Positions 24,823-40,673 of a DNA stretch of 45,161 nucleotides are shown here, piece after piece. The translations under genes and the position numbers were made by a program. The notes under the pieces are model-generated. The model saw nothing but the letters and a program-made list of their open reading frames with translations. It did no database searches and was not told the origin of the DNA. Origin of the DNA: Candidatus Omnitrophota bacterium (GTDB taxonomy: Bacteria; Omnitrophota; Gorgyraeia; JAFGHF01); assembly GCA_016939375.1 (NCBI GenBank), contig JAFGHF010000041.1, positions 1 through 45,161 of the forward strand, given 5' to 3'. Numbering within the stretch: the first letter of the stretch is position 1; the number at the start of each line of letters is the position of its first letter.

Positions 24823-27800
24823 TAACGTTTTCCTCGTCTATCTGGTGCACACATTCTATTTTCGCTATACCCTGCTTGAACTCCGAGGCCGATACTTTAT
24901 CGGGTATGATCTTGCCTATTCCCGGAATGCTCAGCTCTACATCCTGGCCGACGCTGTCATAGTTCGTGACTATTTTGCCCTCTTGGTCTTGGGCAATGAT
25001 CTTTAACGTGAAGGGTTCCCCGACAAATATAGTTTTGGGGGCTACTATGGCGTAGGAAAACGGAGAACTGACATCTTTTTTTTCGATTAAAAGGCTTTCT
25101 CCTTGCGTCATATTGACGCCTTGCGATGAGTTCACTAATGAATCAGTCAAATCGGCTATTTCCTCTTCCAGAGTTTTTCCCTTTTGATAAGCATCTTCCC
25201 AGGACGGTCCATATCTGCGTCGCTGCTCAAGCTTGACATTAGTCTCTACTAGAAAGCTCTTGGTTTTCTCCAGTTGTTTTCTTATCTCTTCGTTATCAGC
25301 GACCACTTGCGTGATCCTGCTTTTCAATTTTAAATTGTCGGTAACCTGTTCGTCATAGGATTTGGTAAGGCGGATCAATCTTTTTTCTAAAAAGTCTTTT
25401 ATTTCGCTGACCTCTTTGAGCTTCTGATCAAGCGAGTCTTTGCTCTGGCTCTTTTGGGTGAGGTTTTCGCTAATGGTTTTGTTTGTACGCTGCGCTTCTT
25501 CCAGCTGCAATTTATAAGATAGCGATTGTTGTTCCTCTCTGCTTAATGCCTGATTGGCTTGAGTGAGTTTTTCTTCCAGTTCATTTTGGGTCAAGACTCC
25601 CTTCTGCTTGGTCTGCTCCAAAAGTAGTGCGGTCTGCGTAAGCTGCTCATTCAAAGAGTCTATTTTTGCGTCTTTTTCTCTTAAAGCCTGCTCCAAAATG
25701 GCCAGATTCTGTTCCAAATTAGATTTGTCTGTAGTCAAAGATTTAAGCTTTATCTCCATGGTTTCATTTATGCTCTGCGCTTGGTCCAGTTGTTGTTTAT
25801 ACGTCTTGGATCTTTGTTCCTCTTCCTCTAAGGAGCTGGTGAGTTCGACTACCTTTTGTTTAAGCGAAAAACGTTCTTTGTCCTTTTCATTCAGAGACTG
25901 TTCCAATAGGCCGAGTTTCTCATCGGCGTTGGCTTTAGCCTGAGCAAGGTCTTCTTCCAAAAGCGATATCTTTGCCTCCTTTTCATTTAAAGACCTGTTT
26001 AAAAGCGAATGTGTCGTTGTCGAAGCCTCTTTAAGCTCCTGCAAGCTCTCCTTTGCGCTAGCAAGCTTCTGTTCCAAGATCGAGTTATCCTGTTTTAGCT
26101 GCTTTACTTCATCGTCCAGAAAAACCTTGTTCTTGGCCAACTCATCGGATTTTTCTTGCAAGATGATCACATCTTGCGTAAGCCTGTTTACCTCATCGCT
26201 CAAAGCCGTTTTCACTTGAGTGGTATTATGTAATTTTTCTTCCAGTATTGTTCTTTCTTGGGTCAGGCTTTCCAGGTTTGTCTTAAGCATCCTGCTTGTG
26301 CTATCCAGCTGCTCTATTTTTTGGGTATATGAAAAGATCTCTATTTCCTTGCCCTGGAGCGCGGTGGTAAGCTCGACCTTATTTTGCTTAAGGTCCATGG
26401 CTTCTTTATCTTTTTCCTTAAAAGACCTGTCTAAAAGGACCAACTTTTGGCTCAGCGCATTTTTATCTTTGCTGAGTTCATCTATTTTCTCCGCAGATAA
26501 CTGGACTTCGTTTTCCGCTTCCTTGAGCTGGTTTTTTAGAGTTATGATTTCTTGCTGGTCTTTGTCCAGCTGGTTATTGAGCAGGGTTATCTCTTTTGCC
26601 AGCTCCTGCTTGCTAGAGTCTGCGTCTTTTTTGGTCTGCTCTAAAATTTTATTCGTCAGAGCAAGCGTCTTCTCTTTGACCGCAAGTTCTTGCTCTTTTT
26701 CCCTTAACAAGGCTTTTTCTCCTTCTAAAGACTTTTTCGCCTGCTCCAGGGCGTCTTTTTTCTCCGCCAATTGCTGTTCTAATGCTGAATTGGAACCGGT
26801 CAACCCAGCTATTTTGTTTTCCGAATCGGCATTGGCTTGATTGGCCTCATTTAACTTTTGCTGCAACGAATGTCTTTCCTGTTTTAGAAGCTCCAGTTCT
26901 GAAGAAAGAGATGAGCTTTTATTTTGCTCCTGCGTGAGCTTCCTTGTATTGGCGATGATCTCTTGATCTCTTTCTTCTAGAGAGCCCGTTAATTCCATCG
27001 CCCTGCCCCTTAGAGATAGTCTCTCCGCCTCTTTTTCTTGCAGAGATTGCTGCAGGATATCTATTTTCTGTTGCAAAGAATCTTTTTCCCGGGTTATCTC
27101 TGAGATCTTAGAATCAAGGATCTCATTTGTAGTCTTGGTCTGCGCTGTTTCTTTTCTATAAGTAAGCACTTCCTGGTCTTTCTGATCTGCGGCTGCGGCC
27201 AGCTGCGCTATTTTCTCTTTAAGCGCAGCCCTGTCTTTATCTTTTTCCTCCAGAAATTCTTTAGAAAGAGTTAGTTTCTGTTCTAAAAACACTTGTTCAC
27301 TCTTTAACTTGGCCAAGTCTGCAGAAAGAGTCTCATTTTCATCTTTAAGCCTGTCGGTTTTTTGCTTCAACGATAATATTTCTACGTCCTTATTGCCCAG
27401 GGTATTCTCCAGCTGCGATATCTTTGCCTCCAGCGCATTTTTGCTAGACTGAGCGTCCTTTTTGGCCTGTTCGAAAATCTCGCTGTTCTGGGTAAGTTCT
27501 ATTTCTAAAGCGTCTTTTTCCGCCTTTTTTATCTTTGCCAGTTCTTTGGATAGAGTAAGTTCTTTTTCCAAAGTTATCTTTGATTCCGTCAGTTTTGTGA
27601 CATTTTCGATTAGAGATTGGTTGGTCTTTTGGGCTTGGCCAAGCTGCTCTTTGTACGATTGCAGCTTTTCTTCTTTCTCTGCCGCCAAATTAGTAAGATC
27701 GTTTATTTTCCTATCGGCGTCCTCTTGCTCTAAGCTGGACTTTTTTTTCGCTTGCTCAAGAGTCAGCTTTGTTTGGGCCAGGTCTTCCTCTAAGGAAGCT

Positions 27801-29209
27801 ATTTTTATATTCTTTTGCTCGCCGGATGTTGTAAGCTGGAAGATTTTCTGCTCCAACTCGGCTTTTGTTGTTTGAGCATTTTGCGTTTTTTCTTCCAGCG
27901 AGGATTTATTCTGGGCAAGTTCATTCTCCAGTAAAGATATTTTTTGTTTCTTTTCCTCTAGCAGCTGCTCTGCTAGAGCCAATTTTTGCTCTAACGTGGT
28001 CTGCGTATTTTGCGAAGATTGCTTAAGAGTGGCGAGCATTTGATTGGCCTGGGTAAGCTGGGTCTCTAAGAAAGCCTTGTTCTGGCTTATGGCCTCTAAT
28101 TCCTCTTTGAGCGCTTGGTTGGTAGCTTGAAGTTGCTCTAACTGTTGTGAGTAAGATTGGATATCCTGATTCTGTTGCTCGACGGTGACGGTCAATTCCG
28201 TGACATTTTTATCCAAGGCGGAAAGGCCGGAGTCTTTGTCCTCTAAAGACTGCTGCAAAACAGAGGTCCGCTGCTCTAGCGCGATCTTTTCTTTAGTCAA
28301 TTGCGTAAGGTCGGCGGCCAGGGTCTGGCTGGTGTCTTGCGCCTGAGTGAGCTGTTGTTTATACGATTGAAGCTGCTCAGCTTTTTCCGCAACCAGGCGC
28401 TTCTGCTCGAGCAGATTTTTATTTAAAGCGGCCGTCTCTTGTTCTTTGGCTTTCATCGAACCCGCCAGATCAAGTGTCTTCTCTTCGAGATCTGAACGTA
28501 CTTCTTTTTCTTTGGAAAGCTCGAAATCCTGTTTGGCTAGCCTGGCCGTGGCCTGGGTCAGCAAAGTCTCGCTCCTGCCTAATTGTTCTTTTAACTTTGC
28601 TTTCTCTAAGATAAGTTCGGACAAGGTATTTTTAAGACTGGCATTTTCTTTTTGTGTGGCTTCTACCGTCCTGTTGAGCTGGCTTAATCTCTCTTCTAGG
28701 CTGGATTTTACCTCGATCGCCTCATTAAGTCTCTCGTCGGTTATATCGAACGCTTGAGAAAAAGGGCGGCGGGCGGTCATCTGTTTGCTGGCTACGACTC
28801 TCGGCTCTGCGCTGGGACCGATTTTAGCCACGATCAACAGGCTAAAAGTCTCTCCAGTGTCATAGGTCAGCTGTTTTTCTACGCAGCCTTTTTTAAATTC
28901 CGCGGCTGAGATCACAGTAGGCTTGATCGTGCCCGTTCCGCTGACCTTTATCTGCAGGTCGCCTCCCTTATCAGCGTAATCTAATACCGGATTGCCGAAT
29001 TGGTCCTTGGCGATCAGCTTTATGTTAAAAGGATCGCCTGCCACTATCGCCGCATCAGTAATAATAAGGCTGAAACGGTCGACTATCGACGAAGAAGTTA
29101 CTGTCTCATTGTCTTGGGCATTGGCGGTGAAATGAAAAAATAACAAAGATAAGACAAGTACAAGCAGATTGATACGTTGCCTTACGTTTTTAGGTTTGTT
29201 TTTTTTCAT
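24815..29209 (-). CDS. giant secreted coiled-coil protein with Ig-like modules at both ends (1464 aa)
   Basis: I do not recognise a named family. An N-terminal signal peptide (LLVLVLSLLFFHFTANA, ending near residue 31) is followed by an Ig-like module (about 50-145: AGDPFNIKLIAKDQFGN, LDYADKGGDLQIKV, AAEFKKGCVEKQLTYD). A coiled coil then runs for about 1180 residues (160-1345) with heptads of Leu, Lys, Glu, Gln and repeated phrases such as LEQKL, KEAEI and SLEE. A second Ig-like module (about 1385-1464: VGEPFTLKIIAQDQEGK, NYDSVGQDVEL, ASEFKQGIAKIECVHQ) ends the protein. A promoter precedes it and AGGGGAAAAT precedes ATG 29209. It probably acts as an envelope scaffold or fibre linked to polysaccharide export. 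Confidence 0.8.
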   Translation of the reverse strand: MKKNKPKNVRQRINLLVLVLSLLFFHFTANAQDNETVTSSSIVDRFSLIITDAAIVAGDPFNIKLIAKDQFGNPVLDYADKGGDLQIKVSGTGTIKPTVISAAEFKKGCVEKQLTYDTGETFSLLIVAKIGPSAEPRVVASKQMTARRPFSQAFDITDERLNEAIEVKSSLEERLSQLNRTVEATQKENASLKNTLSELILEKAKLKEQLGRSETLLTQATARLAKQDFELSKEKEVRSDLEEKTLDLAGSMKAKEQETAALNKNLLEQKRLVAEKAEQLQSYKQQLTQAQDTSQTLAADLTQLTKEKIALEQRTSVLQQSLEDKDSGLSALDKNVTELTVTVEQQNQDIQSYSQQLEQLQATNQALKEELEAISQNKAFLETQLTQANQMLATLKQSSQNTQTTLEQKLALAEQLLEEKKQKISLLENELAQNKSSLEEKTQNAQTTKAELEQKIFQLTTSGEQKNIKIASLEEDLAQTKLTLEQAKKKSSLEQEDADRKINDLTNLAAEKEEKLQSYKEQLGQAQKTNQSLIENVTKLTESKITLEKELTLSKELAKIKKAEKDALEIELTQNSEIFEQAKKDAQSSKNALEAKISQLENTLGNKDVEILSLKQKTDRLKDENETLSADLAKLKSEQVFLEQKLTLSKEFLEEKDKDRAALKEKIAQLAAAADQKDQEVLTYRKETAQTKTTNEILDSKISEITREKDSLQQKIDILQQSLQEKEAERLSLRGRAMELTGSLEERDQEIIANTRKLTQEQNKSSSLSSELELLKQERHSLQQKLNEANQANADSENKIAGLTGSNSALEQQLAEKKDALEQAKKSLEGEKALLREKEQELAVKEKTLALTNKILEQTKKDADSSKQELAKEITLLNNQLDKDQQEIITLKNQLKEAENEVQLSAEKIDELSKDKNALSQKLVLLDRSFKEKDKEAMDLKQNKVELTTALQGKEIEIFSYTQKIEQLDSTSRMLKTNLESLTQERTILEEKLHNTTQVKTALSDEVNRLTQDVIILQEKSDELAKNKVFLDDEVKQLKQDNSILEQKLASAKESLQELKEASTTTHSLLNRSLNEKEAKISLLEEDLAQAKANADEKLGLLEQSLNEKDKERFSLKQKVVELTSSLEEEEQRSKTYKQQLDQAQSINETMEIKLKSLTTDKSNLEQNLAILEQALREKDAKIDSLNEQLTQTALLLEQTKQKGVLTQNELEEKLTQANQALSREEQQSLSYKLQLEEAQRTNKTISENLTQKSQSKDSLDQKLKEVSEIKDFLEKRLIRLTKSYDEQVTDNLKLKSRITQVVADNEEIRKQLEKTKSFLVETNVKLEQRRRYGPSWEDAYQKGKTLEEEIADLTDSLVNSSQGVNMTQGESLLIEKKDVSSPFSYAIVAPKTIFVGEPFTLKIIAQDQEGKIVTNYDSVGQDVELSIPGIGKIIPDKVSASEFKQGIAKIECVHQIDEENVSE

Positions 29210-29303: not shown

Positions 29304-31127
29304 TTACGTAACCTGCGTTTGTCCTTGGCGGCTAATTGTATCATTATAGTGAGCCTTATTATAACCATAATAAGGCTCTGATTGTGTTTGCGGGGTTGTA
29401 TTATTGAGCACTATGCCCAAAATTGACGCGCCCACGTTCTCTAATTGTTCTTTTGCCCGCTTCAAGGCTTCTTTCGCTGTCTGCGCTGTTTGATAGACAA
29501 TGATAACCGCGTTTGTCTTAGGGCCTAAAATAGAGGCATCGGCTATGGGCAGAACAGGAGGCCCGTCAAACAATACAATGTCGAAGTCAGGCCCTGATTC
29601 TTCTATCAATGCTGTTAATTTCTGTGATTCCAAAAGCTCGGCAGGGTTATCGGGGATGCCTCCGGATGTGATTATTTTTAACTTATCCGAGGCATCTACG
29701 TCATGTAGCGCATTTTGCCATTTTATATTTCCTTCTGCATAATCTACAAAACCGGGCTCTCTGCTTAAACCAAAAAGACTGTGCAAAATAGGCCGGCGCA
29801 AGTCGCAATCGACCAAGAGGGCTTTGAACCCTGCTTGTGCGGCGACGATCCCTAAGTTTGCGCAAGTAATAGACTTGCCTTCTCCTGGCCCGACGCTACT
29901 TACAAGCAAGCTTTTTTTATCTTTCTCTAATGCTCTATGCTCTATCAAAGCAAGTAGTTCTCTGTATGACTCCCGGATGTAAGATTGAGCGGGGTAACTG
30001 GTCAGCAACTGCTGCCTCATCCGGGACATCTTATCGGACTTCTTCAGTGGTCCTTTGATGGCCAAGTATGGAATCGCGCTTAACACCGCAAGGCCCGTAT
30101 ATTGCTCGACTTCTTCGATGCTTCTTAAGGTCGTCTGTAAATTTTCCAATATGAAAGCGGAAAATCCTCCCAGCATAAGCCCTATCAATGCCCCCACTAG
30201 ACTATTGAGTAGTTTGTTCGGGCTTATGGGTTGAGTCGGCACATGTGCCTGGTCTACTATACTCAGATCGGGCAATTCATCTTCTTCGGAAATCTTGGCT
30301 GCGATGGCCTGTTCCTTCCATCCTTCATATTTTTTACGATTGTATTGATAGTCGCGATTAAGACTTTTTAGCTCCATCTCTTCTATGTCTAAAGCAGAGA
30401 GTTTATCGCGTACGCTATCGATATTTGCCCGCAACTCTTTAAGTACGGGGTTGTCCCCAGATGAATATTCCTTCGATATTTCGGCAAATCCAGCTTCCAG
30501 CTTGACCAGCTCTTTTTTTAGTCTGTCTCTTTCTAGCTCTACGTCACCTGATCTCTCTTTGAAATTCTTCAGCTTCTCTTCTGACTCATCTAATTTACTC
30601 TTAAATAATGCTTCCTGCTCTTGGACAAATTCTCTACGCTCCCGGGCACTATTTATCCGTTGCTTCAGCTTTAGGTCTCTATACGCCCGGGCTGCGAGAT
30701 TAGCTAACTCCGCAGCTATCTCAGGATCAGAGGCAGTGACACTGATCACCATTACGTTGGAGCCTTCCACTTCCCTAAAGCTTAATGCCCCCGGTAAGGT
30801 ATATGCCTTTTCTCCTCCTTGGGGCACTTCTGTGCCTGCAAATGTACCAAGACGCCTGGCCACTTCCTGTCTGAAGTGTGGGCTCCTTAAGAAAAGCAGC
30901 TCCTTGGACATATCCGGGCCCTTACCCCAGTTCCCGCGCAGAATAAAGCTACCCACCTCTCTGGGCCACCACAATTTAACTGTAGCGCTAGCTTGATATA
31001 AGGGGGCTTGCAGTTGTGAAAAAATAGCGGTAGAGGAAAAGACGGCCAAAAAGATAAACAAGACTATCTTTTTTCTTCTGCACACTATATTCCAGCCTTC
31101 GATCAGAAACGATACATTAAAAACCAT
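29304..31127 (-). CDS. Wzc-like chain-length regulator / BY-kinase, last gene of the peptide operon
   Basis: A second polysaccharide co-polymerase with fused tyrosine autokinase, 607 residues from the chosen start. A first membrane helix (IVLFIFLAVFSSTAIF) and a periplasmic coiled-coil region (about 150-265) are followed by a second helix near LVGALIGLMLGGFSAFIL. The kinase domain has Walker A VGPGEGKS (about 412-419), an intact Walker A' LLVDCDLRRP (Asp440, Asp442) and Walker B IVLFDGPP. The tail has a modest tyrosine cluster (PYYGYNKAHY). I chose ATG 31127 with AGCAGG upstream, after the stop at 31147; a longer frame opens at 31190. It lies 19 bases behind the S26/nucleotidyltransferase gene, so it is co-transcribed with the peptide system. 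Confidence 0.88.
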   Translation of the reverse strand: MVFNVSFLIEGWNIVCRRKKIVLFIFLAVFSSTAIFSQLQAPLYQASATVKLWWPREVGSFILRGNWGKGPDMSKELLFLRSPHFRQEVARRLGTFAGTEVPQGGEKAYTLPGALSFREVEGSNVMVISVTASDPEIAAELANLAARAYRDLKLKQRINSARERREFVQEQEALFKSKLDESEEKLKNFKERSGDVELERDRLKKELVKLEAGFAEISKEYSSGDNPVLKELRANIDSVRDKLSALDIEEMELKSLNRDYQYNRKKYEGWKEQAIAAKISEEDELPDLSIVDQAHVPTQPISPNKLLNSLVGALIGLMLGGFSAFILENLQTTLRSIEEVEQYTGLAVLSAIPYLAIKGPLKKSDKMSRMRQQLLTSYPAQSYIRESYRELLALIEHRALEKDKKSLLVSSVGPGEGKSITCANLGIVAAQAGFKALLVDCDLRRPILHSLFGLSREPGFVDYAEGNIKWQNALHDVDASDKLKIITSGGIPDNPAELLESQKLTALIEESGPDFDIVLFDGPPVLPIADASILGPKTNAVIIVYQTAQTAKEALKRAKEQLENVGASILGIVLNNTTPQTQSEPYYGYNKAHYNDTISRQGQTQVT

Positions 31128-31146
31128 TATTTCAACCTGCTTCTCA

Positions 31147-32829
31147 TTAAGATCCAGCGCGGATTTTCTTGACCAATTTCCAGGGCCCAAGAATAATCCG
31201 CAAAAAATAATTTCTGCCTGCCAATACTTCTTTGGGCGGGAAAAACACCCTTACAAAAATCCTTGCATGCTCACCTAAAGAGCGCGCTTCGATCAATTCG
31301 AAGAAGATATACCTTAAAAAAGCATACATAAACCTTTTTCTCAAACCCCGGCGCATAAACACTTTTTTATTGCAAAAGGCATTAATAAGTATTTTTTTAG
31401 CAAACGGCATCTTTATCATGCCCAAAACCTTGGCAGCAGTCGGAGAGTCAAGCAAGTTTTTTTCCAACCTAATGGCCATGTACAAAGAAGAAACAAGACG
31501 CCACTTTTTTGCCTTATCGATAACGCTGGGCCAGGATATAATCCCGGCGTATTTGCCTAACAACCTCTCTATATCGCATATATATCTGAGCTGTCCTAAC
31601 GTATTGCTATTGGCCATATGCGCGCAGAGATAAAGCAAAAGTTCTTCTTCGCTGAATTCGTAATACGGGACATTTGTCTCGTCAGATACAAATCGCGCGC
31701 TTCGCCATAACCATGCAATTCTTGCTTGCGTACGCAGCATCATGGTAATATCCCATTGTAGGTCGACCATCGTCTCGCCGGGCTTTGTAAGAGTATATTG
31801 CCAGGACCACCGCGGTATCTCTCTGTGTAAATCGCGGGAATATCCTACTGCCTCCAAAAATACACTTGCTTTGAACTTATTTTTTTCATCTATCAACAGG
31901 TCAAAATCTACGCTCACCCCCCGGCTTGCAGTATCACCATAAAGCCTGCGGGAGAGAAAGATGCCTTTAAGCGGTATTGCGCGGATATCATGCGCAGCCA
32001 ATAATCGTAAGATCACTTTTAACTGTTCCTGCTGAAGCGTGGCATTAGATATAATAGAAAAATACGCTGATCTTAGCCTATCCAATACAAAGCGAGGGAC
32101 GTGAACATCGCGATAGATCCGGCTCAAAAAGCGGTAGAGCAAAACGGCCACTTGTCCATTAATTGCCATATCGAGCAACCGCTGCCAACGCACGCCTTCT
32201 TTGATTATTTCTATTGCTTTTTCTTTCTCGGTAAAATCTTTTTTTATGCTTAAGAGAAGGAGCTGCTCGGTGTTGTAGGTAAGAGGGCTGCCTTTTAATA
32301 TTCTCCTCCTGAGCTTATTAAAAAACCATCGCCATTCGCCAATAAGGCTTATGTATCTTGCCAGGCGAGGAATCACCTGCGGGTGGTTTAATGAAAGTGC
32401 GGCAATCCTAGGGTTTAGATATCGCCAGGCTGGAGATTCTAGATCAAAGGCGATATCTTTTCTCTCGATCCAGACCGCTTTTCCGGCGATCGAATCTATG
32501 GTCAGGGGCGCGTCCAAGCCGCCTTTGCTAAAATCACCTTTGGTAAAATATACGTTTTCGCCATTATAACTTTTTTCAATGCGCACCAACCTATGGACAA
32601 TAAACCATCCATCTATGTCTTCTCTGATAACGGCCACAATATCGCCGACTTTGATGCTATCAACGGGTATGATCCTTATTTTATCCTGGTCTTTTATGAA
32701 TGGGTACATGCTCATACCCCGGGAGCGTACATATACGTCCCGGCCCTGGCGCAAGAGAGAAAGATGCACATCTTTTAAGGAGGCATCGAACTTTTCCTGT
32801 ATCTGGATATTTTTTTCTTCGACTATCAT
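31147..32829 (-). CDS. fusion of S26-type (SipW-like) peptidase domain and nucleotidyltransferase (NTP_transf_5)
   Basis: A 560-residue protein with two parts. Residues 20-130 resemble a type I signal peptidase/S24-S26 domain: RSRGMSMYPFIKDQDKI holds the catalytic Ser (Ser40) and WFIVHRLVRI the His (His79) of the archaeal/SipW Ser-His type. I see no transmembrane anchor, so it may act in the cytoplasm. Residues about 185-560 match the NTP_transf_5 family of HprK/PqqD peptide systems: IPLKGIFLSRRLYGD (286-299) and SVDFDLLID (306-314, with the DxD). The N-terminal half could cleave the leader while the C-terminal half transfers a nucleotide. Start overlaps the ABC transporter stop as ATGA. The fusion itself is unusual to my knowledge. 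Confidence 0.8.
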   Translation of the reverse strand: MIVEEKNIQIQEKFDASLKDVHLSLLRQGRDVYVRSRGMSMYPFIKDQDKIRIIPVDSIKVGDIVAVIREDIDGWFIVHRLVRIEKSYNGENVYFTKGDFSKGGLDAPLTIDSIAGKAVWIERKDIAFDLESPAWRYLNPRIAALSLNHPQVIPRLARYISLIGEWRWFFNKLRRRILKGSPLTYNTEQLLLLSIKKDFTEKEKAIEIIKEGVRWQRLLDMAINGQVAVLLYRFLSRIYRDVHVPRFVLDRLRSAYFSIISNATLQQEQLKVILRLLAAHDIRAIPLKGIFLSRRLYGDTASRGVSVDFDLLIDEKNKFKASVFLEAVGYSRDLHREIPRWSWQYTLTKPGETMVDLQWDITMMLRTQARIAWLWRSARFVSDETNVPYYEFSEEELLLYLCAHMANSNTLGQLRYICDIERLLGKYAGIISWPSVIDKAKKWRLVSSLYMAIRLEKNLLDSPTAAKVLGMIKMPFAKKILINAFCNKKVFMRRGLRKRFMYAFLRYIFFELIEARSLGEHARIFVRVFFPPKEVLAGRNYFLRIILGPWKLVKKIRAGS

Positions 32830-34580
32830 TTTACACCGGATAAAATCCCTTTTTCTTCTTTTGCTTTTAGCTGGCCTGTGAAAAGCTCAGCGTACCTTTT
32901 ATTATTTGCCAATAGCCCAGCATGTGTCGAGATCTCTATTTTATCGGGGGCTTGCAAAAAATATACCGCATCCATTTTTTCGACAATAGAAAGCCTGTGC
33001 GAGACGACGATCAGAGTAGCATCTTTAAAGTCCATTTTTATCTTGTCGATAATCTTCTCTTCGGTCTCTGAGTCAACCGAAGAAAGCGCCTCATCTAAAA
33101 TAAGTATCTTGGGTCCTCTTATCATCGCCCGGGCCAAGGCAATCCTTTGTCTTTGACCTTCGGAAAGCCTGCAGGCCATCTCGCCGATCATGGAATCATA
33201 CTTCTTGGGTAAGGTATCAATAAACCCGTGGATCTGCGCGATTTGAGCAGCCTTGATCAAATCTTCTCTTGATGCACTTTCTGCGCCATATAAAATATTA
33301 TCGGCGATTGTATCGTTGAACAAAAAGGGCTCCTGAAGGGCCACGCCTATTTGTCCTCTGAGAGATAGCGGTGGAATCTCTTTTATATCTTCACCGCCAA
33401 CAAAGATAGCGCCTTTTTGAGCATCGTAGAGCTTTAAAATAAGGTTAAGCAATGTGGTCTTGCCACATCCGGAAGGACCCACCAGGGCGATTTTTGCTGC
33501 CGGTTCTATACGGAGATTTAAATTGTTTAAAACATAATTATCCTTTTCATAACCAAAACAGACATCCTTAAATTCGATTTTTCCTGCAATAATTGTTAAG
33601 TCTTCTAAAACAGCGGCATCTTGTATATTCACTCGAGCATCAAGGATTTCGTTTAAGCGCCCGCGTGATACAGAATTTACTATGCTGGACTCATAAAGCT
33701 TAGCAGCTGATTTTACAAGTCCCATAAGCTGGGTGAGGTAGATCATAATCGCGGTGAGGCTACCTAAGGTTATGGCTTGCGTAATCACCAGGTATCCTCC
33801 GAACAAAGCGATCACCCCACCTATCGCCTTGTTTAAGATAGCGCCGGAATAGTTGCCAATATTAAAAAGCCTGGCGTATTTAAGCTGGGCATCGTTTTGG
33901 GCGGCAATGGCCTTCTCAAATCTATCGATCTCATACTTTTCCTTGCCCAAGGCCTTGACCAAGTGCATATGCGAGAAGGCTTCGTGCAACCTCTCGAAGA
34001 CACCCTGGGAGAAATTAATTATTATCTGCGTTATTATTTTGAGCTTTTTGCCAAAAAAGTATGGGTGAATCAAACCCAGGGGCAATAGCAGGAAAGCAAG
34101 TAGGGCTAGCTTCCAGTTAAGATAGAAAACAATCGCCAGAATAAATATAATACGGGGCAAAAGAATAAATATCTCAGCACCCAATTTAGTGATAAAATCA
34201 CAGACCACGCTTACATCGCTGCTTATCTTATATACATGCTCACCGGTAGAGCTGTTGTTAAAAAAGCTCAGCGGCATATTCTGCAGGCGCCTGAATACAT
34301 CCTTGGTCATATCGAATCGGACGCCGCATTTTATGCGCTGGGCGATGTAATTGCTCAGACAATTCAGTAAGCTGTTAAAGACAAAAATGCCTGCGCTTAT
34401 GCCGGCCAAAATAAAAAACAGCCTTAAGTCACTATTGCCATAGGCCCTGTCTATTACTAATTTGGCAAGATAGGGATTGATCAGGCTCAAAGGTAAGGCC
34501 AAAACCCCTAAAAGGACCGCCGCGGCCTGCAGCTTCCAATATTTGCATAGATATCTATTAAATCCGGACCAATAGTTCAC
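32826..34580 (-). CDS. ABC exporter (fused permease and ATPase)
   Basis: A half-transporter with an exporter-type (MsbA/LapB-like) fold, 584 residues. Six membrane segments fill the first about 330 residues. The ATPase domain has Walker A GPSGCGKTT, Q-loop ALQEPFLFND, signature LSEGQRQRIALARA, Walker B ILILDEALSSVD and the H-loop SHRLS. There is no C39 peptidase domain at the N-terminus, so leader cleavage must be done elsewhere, possibly by the S26-like neighbour. I chose GTG 34580 instead of ATG 34637: AGGGG lies eight bases upstream and it overlaps the radical SAM stop as GTGA. It is the likely exporter of the modified peptide. Confidence 0.88.
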   Translation of the reverse strand: MNYWSGFNRYLCKYWKLQAAAVLLGVLALPLSLINPYLAKLVIDRAYGNSDLRLFFILAGISAGIFVFNSLLNCLSNYIAQRIKCGVRFDMTKDVFRRLQNMPLSFFNNSSTGEHVYKISSDVSVVCDFITKLGAEIFILLPRIIFILAIVFYLNWKLALLAFLLLPLGLIHPYFFGKKLKIITQIIINFSQGVFERLHEAFSHMHLVKALGKEKYEIDRFEKAIAAQNDAQLKYARLFNIGNYSGAILNKAIGGVIALFGGYLVITQAITLGSLTAIMIYLTQLMGLVKSAAKLYESSIVNSVSRGRLNEILDARVNIQDAAVLEDLTIIAGKIEFKDVCFGYEKDNYVLNNLNLRIEPAAKIALVGPSGCGKTTLLNLILKLYDAQKGAIFVGGEDIKEIPPLSLRGQIGVALQEPFLFNDTIADNILYGAESASREDLIKAAQIAQIHGFIDTLPKKYDSMIGEMACRLSEGQRQRIALARAMIRGPKILILDEALSSVDSETEEKIIDKIKMDFKDATLIVVSHRLSIVEKMDAVYFLQAPDKIEISTHAGLLANNKRYAELFTGQLKAKEEKGILSGVK

Positions 34581-35629
34581 CGCGATTCCCCTGCGTTTTG
34601 CAAAGTCCCATTGTAAATCGATTCCGCCAAACGGCAATAATAGGCAATGGCCGTCTCCTCGTCTCCCATCTCAAGCCGTGCCCTGCCCGGACACCAGCTG
34701 CAGAATTCTCTCAAAAAACAATTTTTGCATTTTGAGGCGCTGATAAATCTTCTTCCCCTGACTAAAGATAATATTCTGCTGCGTGCATATTCTATGTCAA
34801 CCTCAAGTAAATTATAGGCGGGTTCTCTTATTAAATTGCAGAGAAACATATTTCCGTAAGGATCAATATGGATGTCGCCGTCTGCTGCGGCGCAGCGAAA
34901 AAGGAGATCTCCATTTCTCTGGGGCTTGGGGGGGAGATTTATTTTAGGCATATCGCTCGAATGCAAAACATCATCCGGCTCGACCCTGAATGCACAAGGT
35001 GTATTATCGCCGTTGAGGCGCGGATGCAGGTCAAAGCCGGGGTGAAACGGCAAGCCAAAATCTTCAATCAGTCTTTTTATCTGCGCCATCTCTTGGATGT
35101 TTTGTTTAGTCGCTTGCGTCTTAATTTTAAGCGGAAGGTGCGCTTCTAACATAAGCTTTATGCCCTGCATAGTCTTCTCAAACGAGCCCTTTACCTGGGA
35201 TATTTTTTCATACGTCTCTGCGGTAGCCGCATTTAATGTCAATTCAACAGCAAAAGGAGGCGAATTTTTAAAATATGCTATTGTTTCTTCGGTCATAGAA
35301 TAGCCGTTAGTAAATATGCTGATAATAAATCCTTTTTCTTTGGCATAGTTATAAATCTCTAAAAAATCCGCTCGTGTAAGCGGGTCCCCGCCGGTTAAGC
35401 AAAGCCAGATTACACCTGAGTCATAAATCTTATCCACTATAAGCTTGGCCTCTTTTGTATCAAGCTCCTTGCGGATATTCTCGCGGCTGTTGTAGCAGTC
35501 CGAATAGCAATGTGTGCAATGCAGTCCACATGCAAAGGTAAGCTCAAAGCGGCAGACATTTGGTCTTTCTAAAGACCAGTTCTTCCGGTGCGTCTTTAAG
35601 CTGAAATCCCTGTAGTCATTCTCTCTCAT
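34577..35629 (-). CDS. SPASM-domain radical SAM peptide-modifying enzyme (third in the operon)
   Basis: 350 residues. The SAM-cluster motif is CGLHCTHC (Cys34, Cys38, Cys41), followed by LCLTGGDPLTRADF and FIISIFTNGYSM, as in PqqE, AnSME and sactisynthases. The C-terminal SPASM region contains FRCAAADG, NMFLCNLI and CKNCFLREFCSWCPGRA, enough cysteines for two auxiliary 4Fe-4S clusters. Expected chemistry is a crosslink, epimerisation or oxidation on the precursor, but the exact reaction is unknown. AAGGAAAAT precedes ATG 35629. The gene overlaps both neighbours by four bases, between the HprK-like kinase and the exporter. Confidence 0.88.
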   Translation of the reverse strand: MRENDYRDFSLKTHRKNWSLERPNVCRFELTFACGLHCTHCYSDCYNSRENIRKELDTKEAKLIVDKIYDSGVIWLCLTGGDPLTRADFLEIYNYAKEKGFIISIFTNGYSMTEETIAYFKNSPPFAVELTLNAATAETYEKISQVKGSFEKTMQGIKLMLEAHLPLKIKTQATKQNIQEMAQIKRLIEDFGLPFHPGFDLHPRLNGDNTPCAFRVEPDDVLHSSDMPKINLPPKPQRNGDLLFRCAAADGDIHIDPYGNMFLCNLIREPAYNLLEVDIEYARSRILSLVRGRRFISASKCKNCFLREFCSWCPGRARLEMGDEETAIAYYCRLAESIYNGTLQNAGESR

Positions 35630-36546
35630 ATTTTCCTTATAAAGTCTATTACTGATTTTTCCTTGGCAAAGCCCAGGCGATAACAGGGCGTTTTTTTAAG
35701 CAAGTCCTGGCAGAATGAGACTATATTTATCAATAACTTGCTATCCCAGAAAGTGGGGAAAACCGCAGGATAAAGCCGTATAAACCTCTCCTGCGCCAAG
35801 ACCTCTTTTGCCCTATGGCTGGGGGCGTGGTATATAAAAAACATCTTTTCTAAGATTGCCGGCTCTATGCGCGATTCCAGATAATCGCCGAAATCTCCGT
35901 GCCAGGGAGAAGCATAGATCATGAACTTACCATTTTTTCTGCGGATGATCATCCGGTCATCGTTTAACACACTGGCCCTTGAATGCGCATGCCAGATCCG
36001 GGCGATGGTAGTCTTGCCGCATCCGGACTTGCCGGCAAATATAAACCCTTGGCCGTCTATGTCTCTTACCCCGATGGAATGGGTAAAAATCCCCGATTTG
36101 CGTTGGGCAAAGTAATTTATCAAATGAAGCTGGAGAAAATCATATATGATATCACCGATATTCCAACTGCGGCCGTTATTTTTTTTGGCCAATAAGTAGG
36201 CGTGCACTTTGTCAAAAGAGTTATTTACCAGCATCAGCTGTTTTTTATTCCACAAAGGGCATTTATAGACATATGTATCTGCTTTCTTCAAAAGCCGCCA
36301 GTTTTCGCTGCCGTCGGCAAAATGATAAGTAGTAAAAAGTTGTCTTGCTCCCGCGATCCGGGGCAGTTTTTTTACTACGTCTACTTCAATAGTAATATCC
36401 GGGGCCTTTTCCCCTTTATAGATAAAATTGCTGAAACGGCGGATGTATTGCCTTCTCTTTTCCCTTTTCGAGAGTTGCTCGACGGCAAAACGGCTGCGCA
36501 TCTCGATCACTACCTGGGCGATCTTTAATCTAACAGACGAGTTCAT
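35626..36546 (-). CDS. HprK-related kinase
   Basis: A 306-residue protein whose C-terminal half resembles HPr kinase/phosphorylase. It has a P-loop FAGKSGCGKTT (170-180), SVLNDDRMIIR (192-202), whose Asp pair is the HprK-type catalytic/metal site, and YASPWHGDFGDY. The N-terminal half (1-150) is divergent and lacks an HprK N-domain. It matches the 'HprK-related kinase A' group seen with PqqD-like chaperones and nucleotidyltransferases (family name from memory). HPr itself is not encoded here, so a peptide substrate is more likely than HPr. In paeninodin lasso-peptide clusters a similar kinase phosphorylates a C-terminal Ser, and the precursor here also ends in Ser-Ser. Confidence 0.82.
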   Translation of the reverse strand: MNSSVRLKIAQVVIEMRSRFAVEQLSKREKRRQYIRRFSNFIYKGEKAPDITIEVDVVKKLPRIAGARQLFTTYHFADGSENWRLLKKADTYVYKCPLWNKKQLMLVNNSFDKVHAYLLAKKNNGRSWNIGDIIYDFLQLHLINYFAQRKSGIFTHSIGVRDIDGQGFIFAGKSGCGKTTIARIWHAHSRASVLNDDRMIIRRKNGKFMIYASPWHGDFGDYLESRIEPAILEKMFFIYHAPSHRAKEVLAQERFIRLYPAVFPTFWDSKLLINIVSFCQDLLKKTPCYRLGFAKEKSVIDFIRKI

Positions 36547-37630
36547 AGCGTTCTTTTCTTAATTGGGCAAATTGTTTGTTTTGAGGATCACAAGAAAGGA
36601 AGTTCTTGCTCTCAAGCCACCCTCTCGCCGGACACCACCTACAGTCAGGTGCCAGCTCACACTTATTACATTGAAAGCTCTCATCGATTTGGATAGAGGC
36701 GACTAACTCTTTCATCCTCTCCCATGCCTCCTTAAGACTCACAACCTGCTCTCCATTTCCTGTGCTCTGCTTTCTTTCTTCTGTATGTATTTTATATTTG
36801 GGATAATCGATCATCACGCACATCTTCAGCTCTCCCAAAGGGGTGATCGCCGCTTGTGTCTGGCCCACGCCGCAGCTAAAGAGGTTTTGAGATATCCTCT
36901 TGGGATTTCCCTTTTTGATATCGCAGTTGATAAATTCTGTCTTGCCCTGTCTTGCCTCGGCATAAGTCTCATCCTGGCAATATCCCCTATATCGGTATGG
37001 TTCCTTGGAGCCGTCCAAGCGCGGCGAGAGGATGTTATCCAGACGGTAGGGTATGCCCAATAGCTGGGCATATTCCTCTATCATCTTTATCTCATCTTGA
37101 TTTTCCTTTAATACACAGCTTTTAAATCCCAAAGGCACTTTTTGCTGATGTAATAGTTCTATTGCCCTGAATATCCTCTCTTTACATCCGGCCACCCCGC
37201 ATATCCGCTCAAAGGCACTCCTGCTTATCGCCGGGATGGTTATATCCACCTTGTTTGGCCCCAAGCGCGCCAATTCAGCCGCAATGCGCTGGTCGATAAA
37301 ATAGCCGTTAGTATAAATGATGATTTCAAATCCTTTTCTCTTGGCATACCAGAAGATATCCATGATGTCTGGGCGCATAAACGGCTCTCCTCCGGTAAAA
37401 CCCAAATAGAGGCAACCGATATCGGCAAGCTGGTCCAAAACATAAAAGACCTCTTTTGTGGAAAGCTCATCTCTTTTAGACTTCTCTTTATAAGAAGGGG
37501 GAACATAACAGTGTTTGCAGAAGAAGTTACAGGCATACGTCAACTCAAACATTACCCGCAAGGGAAAACCCCTGCTTTGCGCGTGTTGGTGCACTCTTCT
37601 CCAAAACTTATTGTATAATTGGAACTTCAA
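36530..37630 (-). CDS. SPASM-domain radical SAM peptide-modifying enzyme (second in the operon)
   Basis: 366 residues. Cluster motif CNFFCKHC (Cys34, Cys38, Cys41), then YLGFTGGEPFMRPDI, FEIIIYTNGYFI and KVDITIPAISRSAFERI (the substrate-strand region). The SPASM part is SCGVGQTQ, ELKMCVMIDY and CNKCELAPDCRWCPARGWLE, followed by a last Cys (LSCDP). It is the most divergent of the three SPASM paralogues in the operon; overall length and organisation match. The start is TTG at 37630, overlapping the upstream gene by 23 bases; GGAG upstream, eight bases away, makes it credible. It likely acts on the precursor at 38756-38953. Confidence 0.87.
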   Translation of the reverse strand: MKFQLYNKFWRRVHQHAQSRGFPLRVMFELTYACNFFCKHCYVPPSYKEKSKRDELSTKEVFYVLDQLADIGCLYLGFTGGEPFMRPDIMDIFWYAKRKGFEIIIYTNGYFIDQRIAAELARLGPNKVDITIPAISRSAFERICGVAGCKERIFRAIELLHQQKVPLGFKSCVLKENQDEIKMIEEYAQLLGIPYRLDNILSPRLDGSKEPYRYRGYCQDETYAEARQGKTEFINCDIKKGNPKRISQNLFSCGVGQTQAAITPLGELKMCVMIDYPKYKIHTEERKQSTGNGEQVVSLKEAWERMKELVASIQIDESFQCNKCELAPDCRWCPARGWLESKNFLSCDPQNKQFAQLRKERYELVC

Positions 37631-38729
37631 TTCTCCTTCTCCTTTCTTTATCCTTTGACTGCTCGGCCTGGATGGCCTTTTTTAAGCCGTGGGCCAGGGC
37701 ACAATAATGCTCCACCGGGGATTCTTTATCCCCGGTCTCTAAAAATGCCCGCGCAGGGCAATAGTAACAAAGGTGGCGCAAGTTACAGTCCCTGCATTTC
37801 GATTCTGTCTGAAAGCTCTCATTTAAAACTTTAGGGAATTTTTCATAAAAACCTTTTTTGAATGGTTCTTTTTTTAAATCGCTGCTGAATTTCTCGCTAT
37901 ATTCACAAAACTTTAGCCTACCAAAAGGGTTGATAAAAAATTGCTGTAGCCAGGAATTACAGTGGTAAAGAAAAATGCTGTCTCTTTTGGCATGCCGCGC
38001 ATCTTTGTGTAGACTAGCTTGATATTGGTCCCAGATATCCGAGTCCTCCTGCATTGCTTCTATCATCTCTTGGTGAGAAAGCCTATATTGGCACGGTCCC
38101 CTATCGCTATTTAGCCTGGGGTATATCATCGGGTCATACTTAAAATGGAACCGGTCTTCTTTTTTGCCAAAAAACTGGTCGGCAAAGGCCTTGATCTTTT
38201 TTATCTCATCTTTATTTTGCTTGAGCAGATTCGCCTTTAATAGCACTGGCATGCCATTGGTCTCGAGCTTTATTATATTTTTGATCACTTTTTCAAAAGA
38301 ACCTTCCGCTTGAGTAATAGATTCATAAGTCGAGCGCGTAATTCCATTTAAGGTAATCTCTATTTTAGAAGGGGGAAACCTTTTAAAAAATCCTATTATT
38401 TGTTTTGTCAAGACGGTAGCGTTAGTAAAAATGGTGATAATAAAGCCTCTCTCCCGGGCATAGGCATAAAGCTCTATGAAATCCTGCCTTAGCAGTGGCT
38501 CTCCGCCGCTAAAAGTGATAAATATACAACCCTCTTTATGCAGCTGAGCTAAGATCTCCTTCCATTCCTCGGTGTTTAGTTCTCTTGCTTTATCTTCAGA
38601 GCCTTTGCAGTAGCAATGGACGCAGTTAAGATTGCATTGATAGGTAAGCTCTAACAGGCCCCTGAGAGGAAAATGGCCTTTTCTATTATGCAGCCTATTG
38701 AGAAAATCCCTTGAATCGATCTCTTTCAT
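37608..38729 (-). CDS. SPASM-domain radical SAM peptide-modifying enzyme (first in the operon)
   Basis: 373 residues. Cluster motif CNLNCVHC (Cys32, Cys36, Cys39), FITFSGGEPLLRQDF, FIITIFTNATVL and KIEITLNGITRSTYESI. The SPASM region is YHCNSW, LKFCEYSEK and CRDCNLRHLCYYCPARA, followed by EHYC. It starts 26 bases after the precursor stop, with no terminator between them and no obvious ribosome site, so it may depend on translation of the precursor. Being the first enzyme after the precursor, it is the best candidate for the core-modifying reaction. The basic C-terminal tail (KDKERRRRIEVP) is not part of the fold. Confidence 0.88.
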   Translation of the reverse strand: MKEIDSRDFLNRLHNRKGHFPLRGLLELTYQCNLNCVHCYCKGSEDKARELNTEEWKEILAQLHKEGCIFITFSGGEPLLRQDFIELYAYARERGFIITIFTNATVLTKQIIGFFKRFPPSKIEITLNGITRSTYESITQAEGSFEKVIKNIIKLETNGMPVLLKANLLKQNKDEIKKIKAFADQFFGKKEDRFHFKYDPMIYPRLNSDRGPCQYRLSHQEMIEAMQEDSDIWDQYQASLHKDARHAKRDSIFLYHCNSWLQQFFINPFGRLKFCEYSEKFSSDLKKEPFKKGFYEKFPKVLNESFQTESKCRDCNLRHLCYYCPARAFLETGDKESPVEHYCALAHGLKKAIQAEQSKDKERRRRIEVPIIQ

Positions 38730-38755
38730 CGGCTATGTAAGTTTAAATTTGTCTT

Positions 38756-38953
38756 TTAAGAGGAAACTGCTCCCGCCTGTGTGTTAAAATAATTATTCAC
38801 TTTTGCCCCGCTTATGTCGCAACCCTGTTGAGCGGGATGCGAATCTCCTGCTCCATCATAGCCTGAATTGTAGCAGGCGCAGGCGAGCACTGCCTGTTCG
38901 GGGTTCAGCTTTACCCTGGTGATCTGCGGGTTGAATTTTTGCTTTTTGGCCAT
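38756..38953 (-). CDS. candidate RiPP precursor peptide, 65 aa
   Basis: A small peptide, not an enzyme, placed between a methyltransferase and the first of three SPASM genes. Start ATG 38953 follows AAAAAGGAGGAAGAG, a near-perfect ribosome site; an upstream ATG at 38989 has no such support. The first about 22 residues look like a leader (FNPQITRVKLNPEQAVL), with Lys/Arg in the first half and a hydrophobic LNPEQAVL part that a PqqD-like protein could bind. The core from about residue 24 has Cys25, Cys27 and Cys45, plus Gly, Ala, Asn and Ser, two Asp in a SGYDGAGDSHP loop, and a C-terminal AVSS. Cys and small residues next to radical SAM enzymes suggest thioether or C-C links. Confidence 0.8.
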   Translation of the reverse strand: MAKKQKFNPQITRVKLNPEQAVLACACYNSGYDGAGDSHPAQQGCDISGAKVNNYFNTQAGAVSS

Positions 38954-38966
38954 CTCTTCCTCCTTT

Positions 38967-40079
38967 TTATTTATCTTTTTTCCGGGCACAAAAACTGTGG
39001 TTGTAATATATGGAATAGCTGCGCTTGTAACTTCTGGTGATCCAGGGGGTGTTGTCGCGCGCTTCGATTATTTTCACTTTAGGCTTTAGTATCTTTTTAA
39101 TATTTTGCCAAGGGCTCTGGCCTTTTTCTAAATTCAGCCTTCTTTTATGTTCTCCCAGAAATTGATAAGGATCGGAGGATAAAAGCAACCCTCCTTTTTT
39201 TAGAACCCTCATCTTTTCTTTTAACATGTTCTTAGGGTTATCAATAGCATCGATTAAGTTACAGCTTAAGGCAATAGATAAAGAACGACCTCTGAAGGGC
39301 AAATTGCTTCCGTCTGCGGCGATAAGAGTAAGGTTTTTTAATCTCTGTTTTTTAAGCGGCCTTTTTTTCTTGATACCTGATTCGCCGATTGCATTATAAT
39401 CTTTTATTCTGATGGGAATATGTTTTAGCAAGCAGGAGGCAAAGAAAAGATGCCCGAAAGAATTATCCAGGCCGAACACATGTTCTGCGTATTCTGAAAG
39501 ATAAGGCAAGAAGCCTCCTACATTGCAGCCCACCTCCAATGCCAAGGACCGTCCATTTTTTGCATAGCGCTTTAAAAATCCTTTTAGCATCAGATGCGGG
39601 GTCTGCAGTCGATATTTATCTATAAAATCGTAAAGTGGCTCTTGGCGACGGGCTAAGGATAATAGATCGTCATAATGGCTGGTGATGTAATGGCTCTCAA
39701 ATACGGTATTTATCCTGTTTTTATATTCATTTTTTGGGCGGGTGAATAGCGCCTCTTGATTCTGCCTTTTTGCCCTCTTTATTGACAGCAGCGAATCGGC
39801 GATAAGATCTTTGTCGAGCCGCCCGTATTTTCTGGAGAGTTCTAATATAATACTAAGATTTGATTTTAGGTATTCGCCGAGATCGGAAATCAATACCGGG
39901 ATTGCGAAAAATATAGGAAAACTCGCCCCGCAGCGCCTGCATTTTATATAACCTTGCTCTATTTCATCGGTGTTAGATTTATGAAAACTGAATACCTCAT
40001 CCAGGGCGAGTTCGCCGCGGCATGTGCCTTTAGAGAGTTTCTTAGGACAGGCTAAATATTTTATGACATTTTTATCCAT
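38967..40079 (-). CDS. zinc-ribbon methyltransferase of the peptide operon
   Basis: A 370-residue protein with a Trm112-like zinc-ribbon N-terminus (YLACPKKLSKGTCRG and YIKCRRCGASFPIFFAIPVLI) and a SAM-dependent methyltransferase domain from about residue 170 (SLALEVGCNVGGFLPYLSEYAEHVFGLDNSFGHL; IAADGSNLPFRGRSLSIALSCNLID at motif IV). The middle holds a basic linker (KKKRPLKKQRLKN). The family commonly methylates small molecules or peptides. It lies directly upstream of the precursor (13 bases) and three bases after the PqqD-like gene, so the precursor or its intermediate may be the substrate. Confidence 0.78.
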   Translation of the reverse strand: MDKNVIKYLACPKKLSKGTCRGELALDEVFSFHKSNTDEIEQGYIKCRRCGASFPIFFAIPVLISDLGEYLKSNLSIILELSRKYGRLDKDLIADSLLSIKRAKRQNQEALFTRPKNEYKNRINTVFESHYITSHYDDLLSLARRQEPLYDFIDKYRLQTPHLMLKGFLKRYAKNGRSLALEVGCNVGGFLPYLSEYAEHVFGLDNSFGHLFFASCLLKHIPIRIKDYNAIGESGIKKKRPLKKQRLKNLTLIAADGSNLPFRGRSLSIALSCNLIDAIDNPKNMLKEKMRVLKKGGLLLSSDPYQFLGEHKRRLNLEKGQSPWQNIKKILKPKVKIIEARDNTPWITRSYKRSYSIYYNHSFCARKKDK

Positions 40080-40082
40080 AAC

Positions 40083-40364
40083 TTACTTAATCGCCTTTAT
40101 CTCTTTGAAATCCTTAAATAACTCCTGCATCTTTTGATCGATTTCGCCAGTTGTAGCCTCGAATTCCTCTTTCAGCTCCTTTTTCATCTCGGCAACGGTC
40201 TTTTTGCCATCGCATAACTGCCATACTCGCGAAGCGGCCTGATTTAGAGTATAGATGCAATTTATCTCATTTGAAGTACGGTAAATGGGCAACAATATCG
40301 TCTCGCCATCTATTACTCTAGTCACTATATCCTCATTTCTTTTTGGTATTTGATTTTCCTTCAT
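40083..40364 (-). CDS. PqqD-like peptide chaperone (RRE domain)
   Basis: A 93-residue winged-helix-like RRE (PqqD) protein: PKRNEDIVTRVIDGETILLPIYR, NCIYTLNQAASRVWQLCDGKKTVAEM and EIDQKMQELFKDFKEIKAIK match the family's three-strand, three-helix fold, including the LNQAASRVWQLCDG signature. PqqD proteins bind the leader of a precursor and present it to a radical SAM enzyme. The ribosome site AAGGAGG lies close upstream. It is the second gene of the operon, after the HTH regulator, and resembles the PqqD group named after the HprK-related system. Confidence 0.88.
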   Translation of the reverse strand: MKENQIPKRNEDIVTRVIDGETILLPIYRTSNEINCIYTLNQAASRVWQLCDGKKTVAEMKKELKEEFEATTGEIDQKMQELFKDFKEIKAIK

Positions 40365-40414
40365 CTTTTGCCTCCTTTCTTTGGCATAACTTTTGCTGCG
40401 CGAACTGAATTTGA

Positions 40415-40594
40415 TTACTTATTTTCTAACCATTTCAGAAGGGAGGCCTTGCTGAAGCGCCAGCTGCGTCCGATCTTGCGTACGGGCACCTCTCCCTTTC
40501 GCGCCAGATTATAAAGTGTGGATTTGCTCAATTTAAGAAAGGCGCTGGCCTCCTCTAAGGTCAAGACCTCCTCATGAGCGCGGATTTCATTCAT
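40415..40594 (-). CDS. small excisionase/MerR-like helix-turn-helix regulator, 59 aa
   Basis: A 59-residue protein with a helix-turn-helix of the HTH_17/excisionase type: LTLEEASAFLKLSKSTLYNLARKG, then EVPVRKIGRSWRFSKASLLKWLENK. ATG 40594 has AAGGAG six bases upstream. An ATG four bases higher (40598) leads to a stop after three codons. It is the first gene of the peptide operon, under a strong promoter that has an inverted repeat just upstream, so it could be the operon's own DNA-binding regulator. Such small HTH proteins are also found in phage and integrative elements, but no integrase or att site is visible here. Confidence 0.85.
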   Translation of the reverse strand: MNEIRAHEEVLTLEEASAFLKLSKSTLYNLARKGEVPVRKIGRSWRFSKASLLKWLENK

Positions 40595-40644
40595 TCATAA
40601 CTCCTTAAGAAATCACTACTTGCTAATAACAAATAATCATTAAC

Positions 40645-40673
40645 ACGATATCACTTTATTTAATAGCTGTCAA
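40645..40673 (-). promoter_or_regulatory. sigma70-type promoter of the peptide operon
   Basis: Minus strand TTGACA, 17 bases, TATCGT: perfect -35, four of six at -10. The start near 40638 leaves about a 44-base leader before the HTH gene at 40594. A seven-base inverted repeat lies upstream at 40712-40730. Confidence 0.85.

Follow-up and report, generated by a model that had tools for sequence, protein, structure and literature searches.

Two described groups of ribosomally synthesized and post-translationally modified peptides (RiPPs) come closest to the system examined here. The Linear Polyphosphorylated Peptides (LPP) were described in 2026 from the lpp cluster of Paenibacillus alginolyticus, for which experiments established that a kinase phosphorylates the precursor and that an SpI-type peptidase removes the leader; the group is presented there as restricted to Bacillota, and radical S-adenosylmethionine (SAM) enzymes are unmentioned (PMC13381572). 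In lasso peptides, kinases of the PadeK/ThcoK type phosphorylate the C-terminal Ser of the precursor by way of a His-Lys-Asp-Asp set of residues reported to be essential, and PsmN adds hexoses after this phosphorylation (PMC9266682). Here we analyzed a 45,161-nucleotide stretch of DNA from a Candidatus Omnitrophota bacterium (assembly GCA_016939375.1, contig JAFGHF010000041.1, positions 1 to 45,161), referred to below as the window, which is contig 62 of the 76 contigs in this 1.74-Mb genome. Eleven co-directional genes on its minus strand, spanning 40594 to 29304, encode among other proteins a 65-amino-acid peptide, three SPASM-type radical SAM enzymes, and an HprK-like kinase. We consider this operon likely to be a RiPP pathway of the LPP/paeninodin phosphopeptide type that also includes SPASM radical SAM enzymes.

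The precursor peptide family

The 65-amino-acid peptide (38759..38953 plus stop; minus strand, as for every gene of the operon) has the leader MAKKQKFNPQITRVKLNPEQAVLA followed by a core running CACYNSG...AVSS. Its N-terminal approximately 30 residues recur across the phylum. An iterated leader profile identified 128 precursor open reading frames in the first set of loci, an alignment-based search found precursors in 46 of the 384 Omnitrophota genomes sampled, and the named records carrying one come from Omnitrophota, Elusimicrobia, Saganbacteria, NPL-UPA2, WOR-3, and ANGP1. The leader of the family can be written FxP/[YW]xxP ... LNPEQAVL-S/A/T-C. The cores are hypervariable, with 116 distinct last-20-residue stretches among 117 complete precursors; Cys, Ser, Trp, Gly, and Thr are overrepresented in them, and Lys, Glu, Leu, and Ile are scarce. 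The family matched no model in the Pfam and NCBIfam releases searched; 2 of 28 precursors matched StsA weakly (best E=0.0025). The same gene set was found again around homologous peptides across many genera, which is beyond chance. A short precursor with a conserved leader and a variable core, adjacent to modification enzymes and a RiPP recognition element (RRE), is the arrangement of discrete-RRE RiPP systems, and judged by these comparisons the 65-amino-acid peptide is a genuine RiPP precursor. An earlier note on this DNA had read the operon as a peptide modification system and had made that reading depend on a small peptide being conserved in related loci. The peptide is clearly conserved, and the reading is strongly supported.

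The precursors share a second constant feature at their C termini. Of the 117 complete precursors, 105 end in Ser and 8 in Thr (113/117 together), and the remaining four resemble truncated or decayed copies. The constraint at this position is on the amino acid, since all six Ser codons occur there. Other proteins of the same cassettes ended in Ser in 5% of cases and in Thr in 4%. The pattern was also present in divergent cassettes found by profile and HprK searches, a set that was not used in discovering it: 18 of 20 precursors ended in Ser and 1 in Thr (19/20). The RRE-binding motif, [YW]xxPx[LVIFAM], was present in all 20 of these divergent-cassette precursors, and [YW]xxPx[LVI] was present in 29 of the 117 close relatives.

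In one 1.4-Mb Omnitrophota genome (G208), the leader pattern L-x-P-E-Q-A-V, with near variants, had 40 exact matches across many contigs and none in a reversed control, and a single HprK was detected in this genome. Loci related to this genome are L106, L108, L111, L112, L114, L116, L117, L119, L120, L122, L124, L126, L130, and L131. The counts suggest that one enzyme set serves many substrates. The arrangement resembles that of the prochlorosins.

Other loci gave separate observations on how precursor genes are distributed. Decayed HprK fragments and truncated precursors lie next to intact copies at L082:7751-8100, L043:1057-2692, and L052:9950-10081, pointing to gene duplication and turnover. 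One and the same orphan precursor sequence, remote from any cassette, is present in L097 (genome G145) and L040 (G069); in G145, which is 96% complete, HprK was not detected. Finally, L045 (G017:C128) and L046 (G175:C3), from genomes of different classes, are cassette contigs that differ very little and encode identical precursors, a case of misbinning or of very recent transfer.

The HprK-like kinase

The kinase gene (35626..36546) encodes a P-loop protein without a Pfam assignment. HprK was found in 43 of the 46 precursor-bearing genomes compared to 60 of the 338 others (Fisher p=9e-25), and it lay within 15 kb of a precursor in 40 of the 46. When 31 HprK proteins were compared, H156, K178, and D196 were conserved in all 31 and D197 in 29. 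The AlphaFold2 (AF2) model of the kinase had a mean predicted local distance difference test (pLDDT) score of 91.7, and its PDB matches have the PEPCK/HPrK fold. As in paeninodin-type lasso clusters, an HprK-like kinase with the His-Lys-Asp-Asp set is paired with a precursor that ends in Ser. From these residues and the terminal Ser, it appears quite likely that the kinase phosphorylates the precursor C terminus. In three genomes a radical SAM domain is fused to an HprK-like kinase in a protein of approximately 650 amino acids (L153:5880-7844, L154:7088-9046, and L155:6522-8477); these fusions adjoin genes for PqqD, S26, and additional radical SAM proteins, and a precursor was not identified in these three loci.

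Radical SAM enzymes, RRE, peptidase, and exporter

The three radical SAM enzymes are encoded at 37608..38729 (enzyme 1; PF04055 E=6e-26, with CNLNCVHC and CRDCNLRHLCYYC), 36530..37630 (enzyme 2; PF04055 E=2e-25, with CNFFCKHC and CNKCELAPDCRWC), and 34577..35629 (enzyme 3; PF04055 E=2e-19, with CGLHCTHC and CKNCFLREFCSWC). Each carries CxxxCxxC near its N terminus and CxxCx5CxxC near its C terminus, so that both the radical SAM motif and the C-terminal auxiliary-cluster cysteines of SPASM peptide maturases are present. The Pfam SPASM model itself matched enzyme 2 only, below threshold (16.8 of 21.5 bits), and the SPASM label is used here because of the cysteine pattern together with matches to SPASM-protein families. 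The best PDB match of enzyme 1 was SkfB. Related cassettes, spread over many families, encode from one to three radical SAM enzymes each, together with PqqD, HprK, ABC, S26, and NTP_transf_5 (NTP5) proteins. One of them (L044) keeps the order of the window from PqqD to Wzc, apart from two differences: the methyltransferase and a Wza-type gene that intervenes.

The discrete RRE, a PqqD-like leader-binding chaperone, is encoded at 40083..40364 (PF05402 E=1.5e-11). In three loci of one genome (L048:11514-12236, L084:8868-9623, and L088:7151-7990), a PqqD RRE and a precursor share one open frame, joined by a repeat-rich linker. The exporter (32826..34637; PF00664 and PF00005) is an MsbA-type ABC protein without a peptidase domain.

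A further gene (31147..32829) encodes a fusion of a SipW/SEC11-type S26 (S24/S26) peptidase domain (PF00717), the proposed leader peptidase, with an NTP5 nucleotidyltransferase (PF14907). In the S26 domains the Ser of GxSMxP is retained, with Cys in its place in two; the His-Arg pair is invariant and Gly-Asp is conserved. This corresponds to the Ser-His-Asp type of SEC11/SipW. The NTP5 domains have a conserved DxD. The window protein has no strongly hydrophobic segment. Its AF2 model, built from five sequences, was of low confidence (pLDDT 67), and only domain-level fold matches were used; these were to the ANT/MenT nucleotidyltransferases for NTP5 and to SEC11C/LexA for S26. S26-NTP5 fusions occur in both domain orders. 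When the fusion was used as the query in a contig scan of genomes, it proved too variable to retrieve any relatives, which the precursor alignment did retrieve. The S26 domain is judged likely to be the leader peptidase.

Proposed pathway and the target of the kinase

Comparative sequence analysis establishes the precursor family, the chassis and how it co-occurs and is linked, the conservation of catalytic residues, and the constraint on the C-terminal Ser, and from these we infer every chemical step, the step order, the nature of the cross-links, and the biological role. The scheme follows from the C-terminal Ser phosphorylation by PadeK and ThcoK, the hexoses added by PsmN, and the kinase and SpI leader removal of LPP. 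The PqqD-like RRE would bind the leader at an aromatic-x(1-2)-P-x-[IVL] motif, and the three radical SAM enzymes would then modify the Cys-rich hypervariable core, probably by thioether or C-C cross-links; thioether chemistry specifically is given slightly less than an even chance. The HprK-like kinase would phosphorylate the C-terminal Ser, and the nucleotidyltransferase domain may add a nucleotidyl or sugar-phosphate group onto the resulting phosphate. The S26 domain would cut off the leader near the junction of VL-(S/A/T) with the following C, after which the ABC transporter would export a product whose site of action or attachment is the cell surface.

Several points weigh against this scheme. 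The window leader carries FxP instead of the canonical [YW]xxP, and in the CC-type precursor subfamily the proline is frequently missing. The chemistry of radical SAM enzymes is not readable from their sequences alone. Glycosylation of the PsmN type is not known outside lasso peptides. In the LPP system, LppN was inactive in the tested host, and the kinase acts only on Ser3 of the core rather than on the C-terminal residue (PMC13381572).

The last of these points bears on a different version of the same RiPP pathway, in which the kinase targets an internal Ser close to where leader and core meet, and conservation of the C-terminal Ser reflects recognition by the exporter or nucleotidyltransferase or some other cause. 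Such a target would fit the observation that 85 of 95 precursors have a small residue, most often Ser, immediately before the first core Cys; yet this residue is not always Ser, and in the window precursor it is Ala. The C-terminal residue is the sole Ser position conserved at approximately 90%, and it is the C-terminal Ser that paeninodin-type kinases target. An internal target is accordingly judged unlikely, and phosphorylation of the C-terminal Ser is the step retained in the proposed pathway.

Operon organization and polysaccharide context

The eleven genes lie at distances of +50 to -61 bases from one another, and the set of eleven co-directional genes described in the earlier note was recovered in full and in the same order. 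A candidate extended -10 promoter (TTGACA-17-TATCGT plus TG) lies upstream of the first gene at 40645..40673 (minus strand, 40673-40645), a consensus match only, with 10 of 12 positions matching in a consensus scan. The first gene (40415..40594) encodes a small DNA-binding protein of the HTH_17/excisionase type (PF12728 E=4e-18) that is likely a local regulator. It was rejected as a core part of the cassette, since profile matches were obtained only in the window and L089. The RRE gene comes second and is followed by a gene for an accessory SAM methyltransferase with a Trm112-like N-terminal region (38967..40079; PF08241 E=1e-11), which was likewise rejected as a core part since it is absent from the related cassettes examined. 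Next come the precursor, radical SAM enzymes 1 and 2, the kinase, radical SAM enzyme 3, the exporter, and the S26-NTP5 fusion. The last gene (29304..31127; TIGR01007, 158 bits) encodes a Wzc-type tyrosine autokinase (BY-kinase)/chain-length regulator, the preferred start of which is the ATG at 31127, 19 bases past the stop of the upstream gene.

The polysaccharide genes of the window lie at 450-24822 and encode glycosyltransferases, Wzx-like, Wzy-like, and Poly_export proteins, a second Wzc, and an AAA_22 ATPase; Wza is among those flanking the operon. A B12-binding radical SAM protein is encoded inside this locus at 11509-13059, and a 1,464-amino-acid coiled-coil protein without a Pfam match is encoded between it and the operon, at 24815-29209.

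Wzc was within 20 kb of a cassette in 15 of the 35 cassette genomes that have Wzc, compared to approximately 5% expected (p=2e-11). The first 20 genomes of this test were partly picked for known linkage, the other 26 precursor genomes were then added, and all 46 were counted; the linkage counts are a lower bound and vary with contig size. Wza, Wzy, or ATPase genes also neighbor cassettes in the loci examined. Eleven cassette genomes had no Wzc match at E<=1e-20, and Wzc was rejected as an obligate part on this ground. It is a recurrent, dispensable neighbor: the association is real, and Wzc is not a core component. Of the tie to the cell envelope put forward in the earlier note, the recurrent genomic linkage therefore holds and the place of Wzc in the core does not. 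Whether the product has an exopolysaccharide-related role we regard as an even question. That large sets of radical SAM-cross-linked peptides are covalently joined to exopolysaccharide through the adjacent Wzx/Wzy/Wza/Wzc system, with the phospho-Ser C terminus as the handle to which a sugar or polymer is attached and a combinatorial, glycan-anchored peptide coat of Omnitrophota as the outcome, is an improbable extension of such a role.

The same neighborhood could be read as an ordinary exopolysaccharide locus in which Wzc, the nucleotidyltransferase, and the HprK-like protein control how polysaccharide is assembled, with the peptide as a small regulatory or structural protein. The glycosyltransferases, Wzx, Wzy, Wza, and second Wzc that flank the operon would be expected on that account, as would the enriched linkage to Wzc. 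However, many cassettes are in genomes without Wzc, a fixed leader with a hypervariable core is typical of RiPP substrates and unlike a structural subunit, and 40 precursor motifs are spread over many contigs of a single genome. These results leave the exopolysaccharide account a very small probability, the lowest of the alternatives weighed here, and favor the RiPP pathway.

Comparison with known systems

Among systems already named by NCBIfam, SynChlorMet (SCM) and GeoRSP resemble the operon in that SPASM radical SAM proteins accompany a PqqD-like protein, and an HprK-like protein, ScmC, is a further component of SCM. The operon might be a diverged cassette of one of these types, and there were weak matches to ScmD (23.7 bits), ScmC (15.2 bits), ScmE/ScmF (58.9-84.6 bits), and the GeoRSP radical SAM family (64.5-83.2 bits). 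Against this, the curated cutoffs are 100 bits for ScmD, 125 for ScmC, and 400 each for ScmE (at most 76.2 here) and ScmF (at most 84.6), the GeoRSP scores are also far under the curated cutoff, and the precursors are matched by neither NCBIfam nor Pfam models. Membership in both was rejected, and a diverged SCM or GeoRSP origin is considered very unlikely. A search of the genome for ScmC gave no signal, and the controls were equally without signal. HPr-rel-A (TIGR04352/TIGR04353) was rejected as well: kinase A and the PqqD-family partner were absent at E<=0.1, and HprK_rel_B scored 17.4 of 200 bits. Literature searches on SynChlorMet, GeoRSP, HPr-rel-A, and HprK-related kinase returned nothing relevant, and no published precursor of this kind was found for SCM or GeoRSP.

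The sactipeptide and ranthipeptide systems (SkfB, StsB, AlbA, and PapB) likewise apply SPASM radical SAM enzymes to Cys-containing precursors; they differ in that the scores obtained here are far below their family cutoffs. We know of no characterized system of this kind that has the kinase, S26, and nucleotidyltransferase set. The paeninodin/pseudomycoidin lasso systems (PadeK, ThcoK, PsmK, and PsmN) share the His-Lys-Asp-Asp kinase, the C-terminal Ser, a nucleotidyltransferase-like partner, a PqqD-type RRE, and an ABC exporter. Domain searches of the eleven genes found neither an Asn-synthetase-like macrolactam cyclase nor a B2 transglutaminase-type peptidase, and membership in the lasso class fails, with radical SAM enzymes in their place.

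The LPP core set of SpI peptidase, discrete RRE, HprK, NTP transferase, and MsbA-like exporter was found in the window and in most of the complete relatives. The LPP leader peptidase is, like the S26 domain here, of the SipW (archaeal) signal-peptidase type. Further likenesses are a conserved leader with a variable C terminus, a patchy distribution, and a location in capsular polysaccharide loci, which the paeninodin clusters share. Conversely, the LPP leader, YxxPxVLxHQxIxFETxxS, was not found: the window leader is KFNPQITRVKLNPEQAVLAC, and only the [YW]xxPx[LVI] part is shared, in relatives. LPP are further defined by multiple phosphates on one core Ser and by a linear product made without other primary modification enzymes, whereas three radical SAM genes are present in this operon. 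The earlier note held that such a combination had not been described. That must be narrowed, as the 2026 paper on LPP already reports the five-part chassis in polysaccharide loci of Bacillota (PMC13381572); the radical SAM-bearing version with a C-terminal Ser was not found in the literature searched.

What is new here relative to LPP is the presence of one to three SPASM enzymes, the Cys-rich cores, the C-terminal Ser, the occurrence in Omnitrophota and other candidate phyla, and the genome in which 40 precursor motifs go with one detected kinase. The sequence-defined precursor family is new to the searched releases of Pfam and NCBIfam. Two predictions, C-terminal Ser phosphorylation and cleavage before the first core Cys, are open to direct test. 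One enzyme set for many substrates would be of value for peptide engineering as well as for understanding Omnitrophota biology. Taken together, the comparisons indicate that the LPP/paeninodin chassis reaches far past Bacillota into candidate phyla, and that two RiPP logics would be joined there in a combination that we have not seen before: SPASM enzymes acting on the core, and an HprK and a nucleotidyltransferase that tailor a C-terminal Ser, with leader removal of the SipW type.

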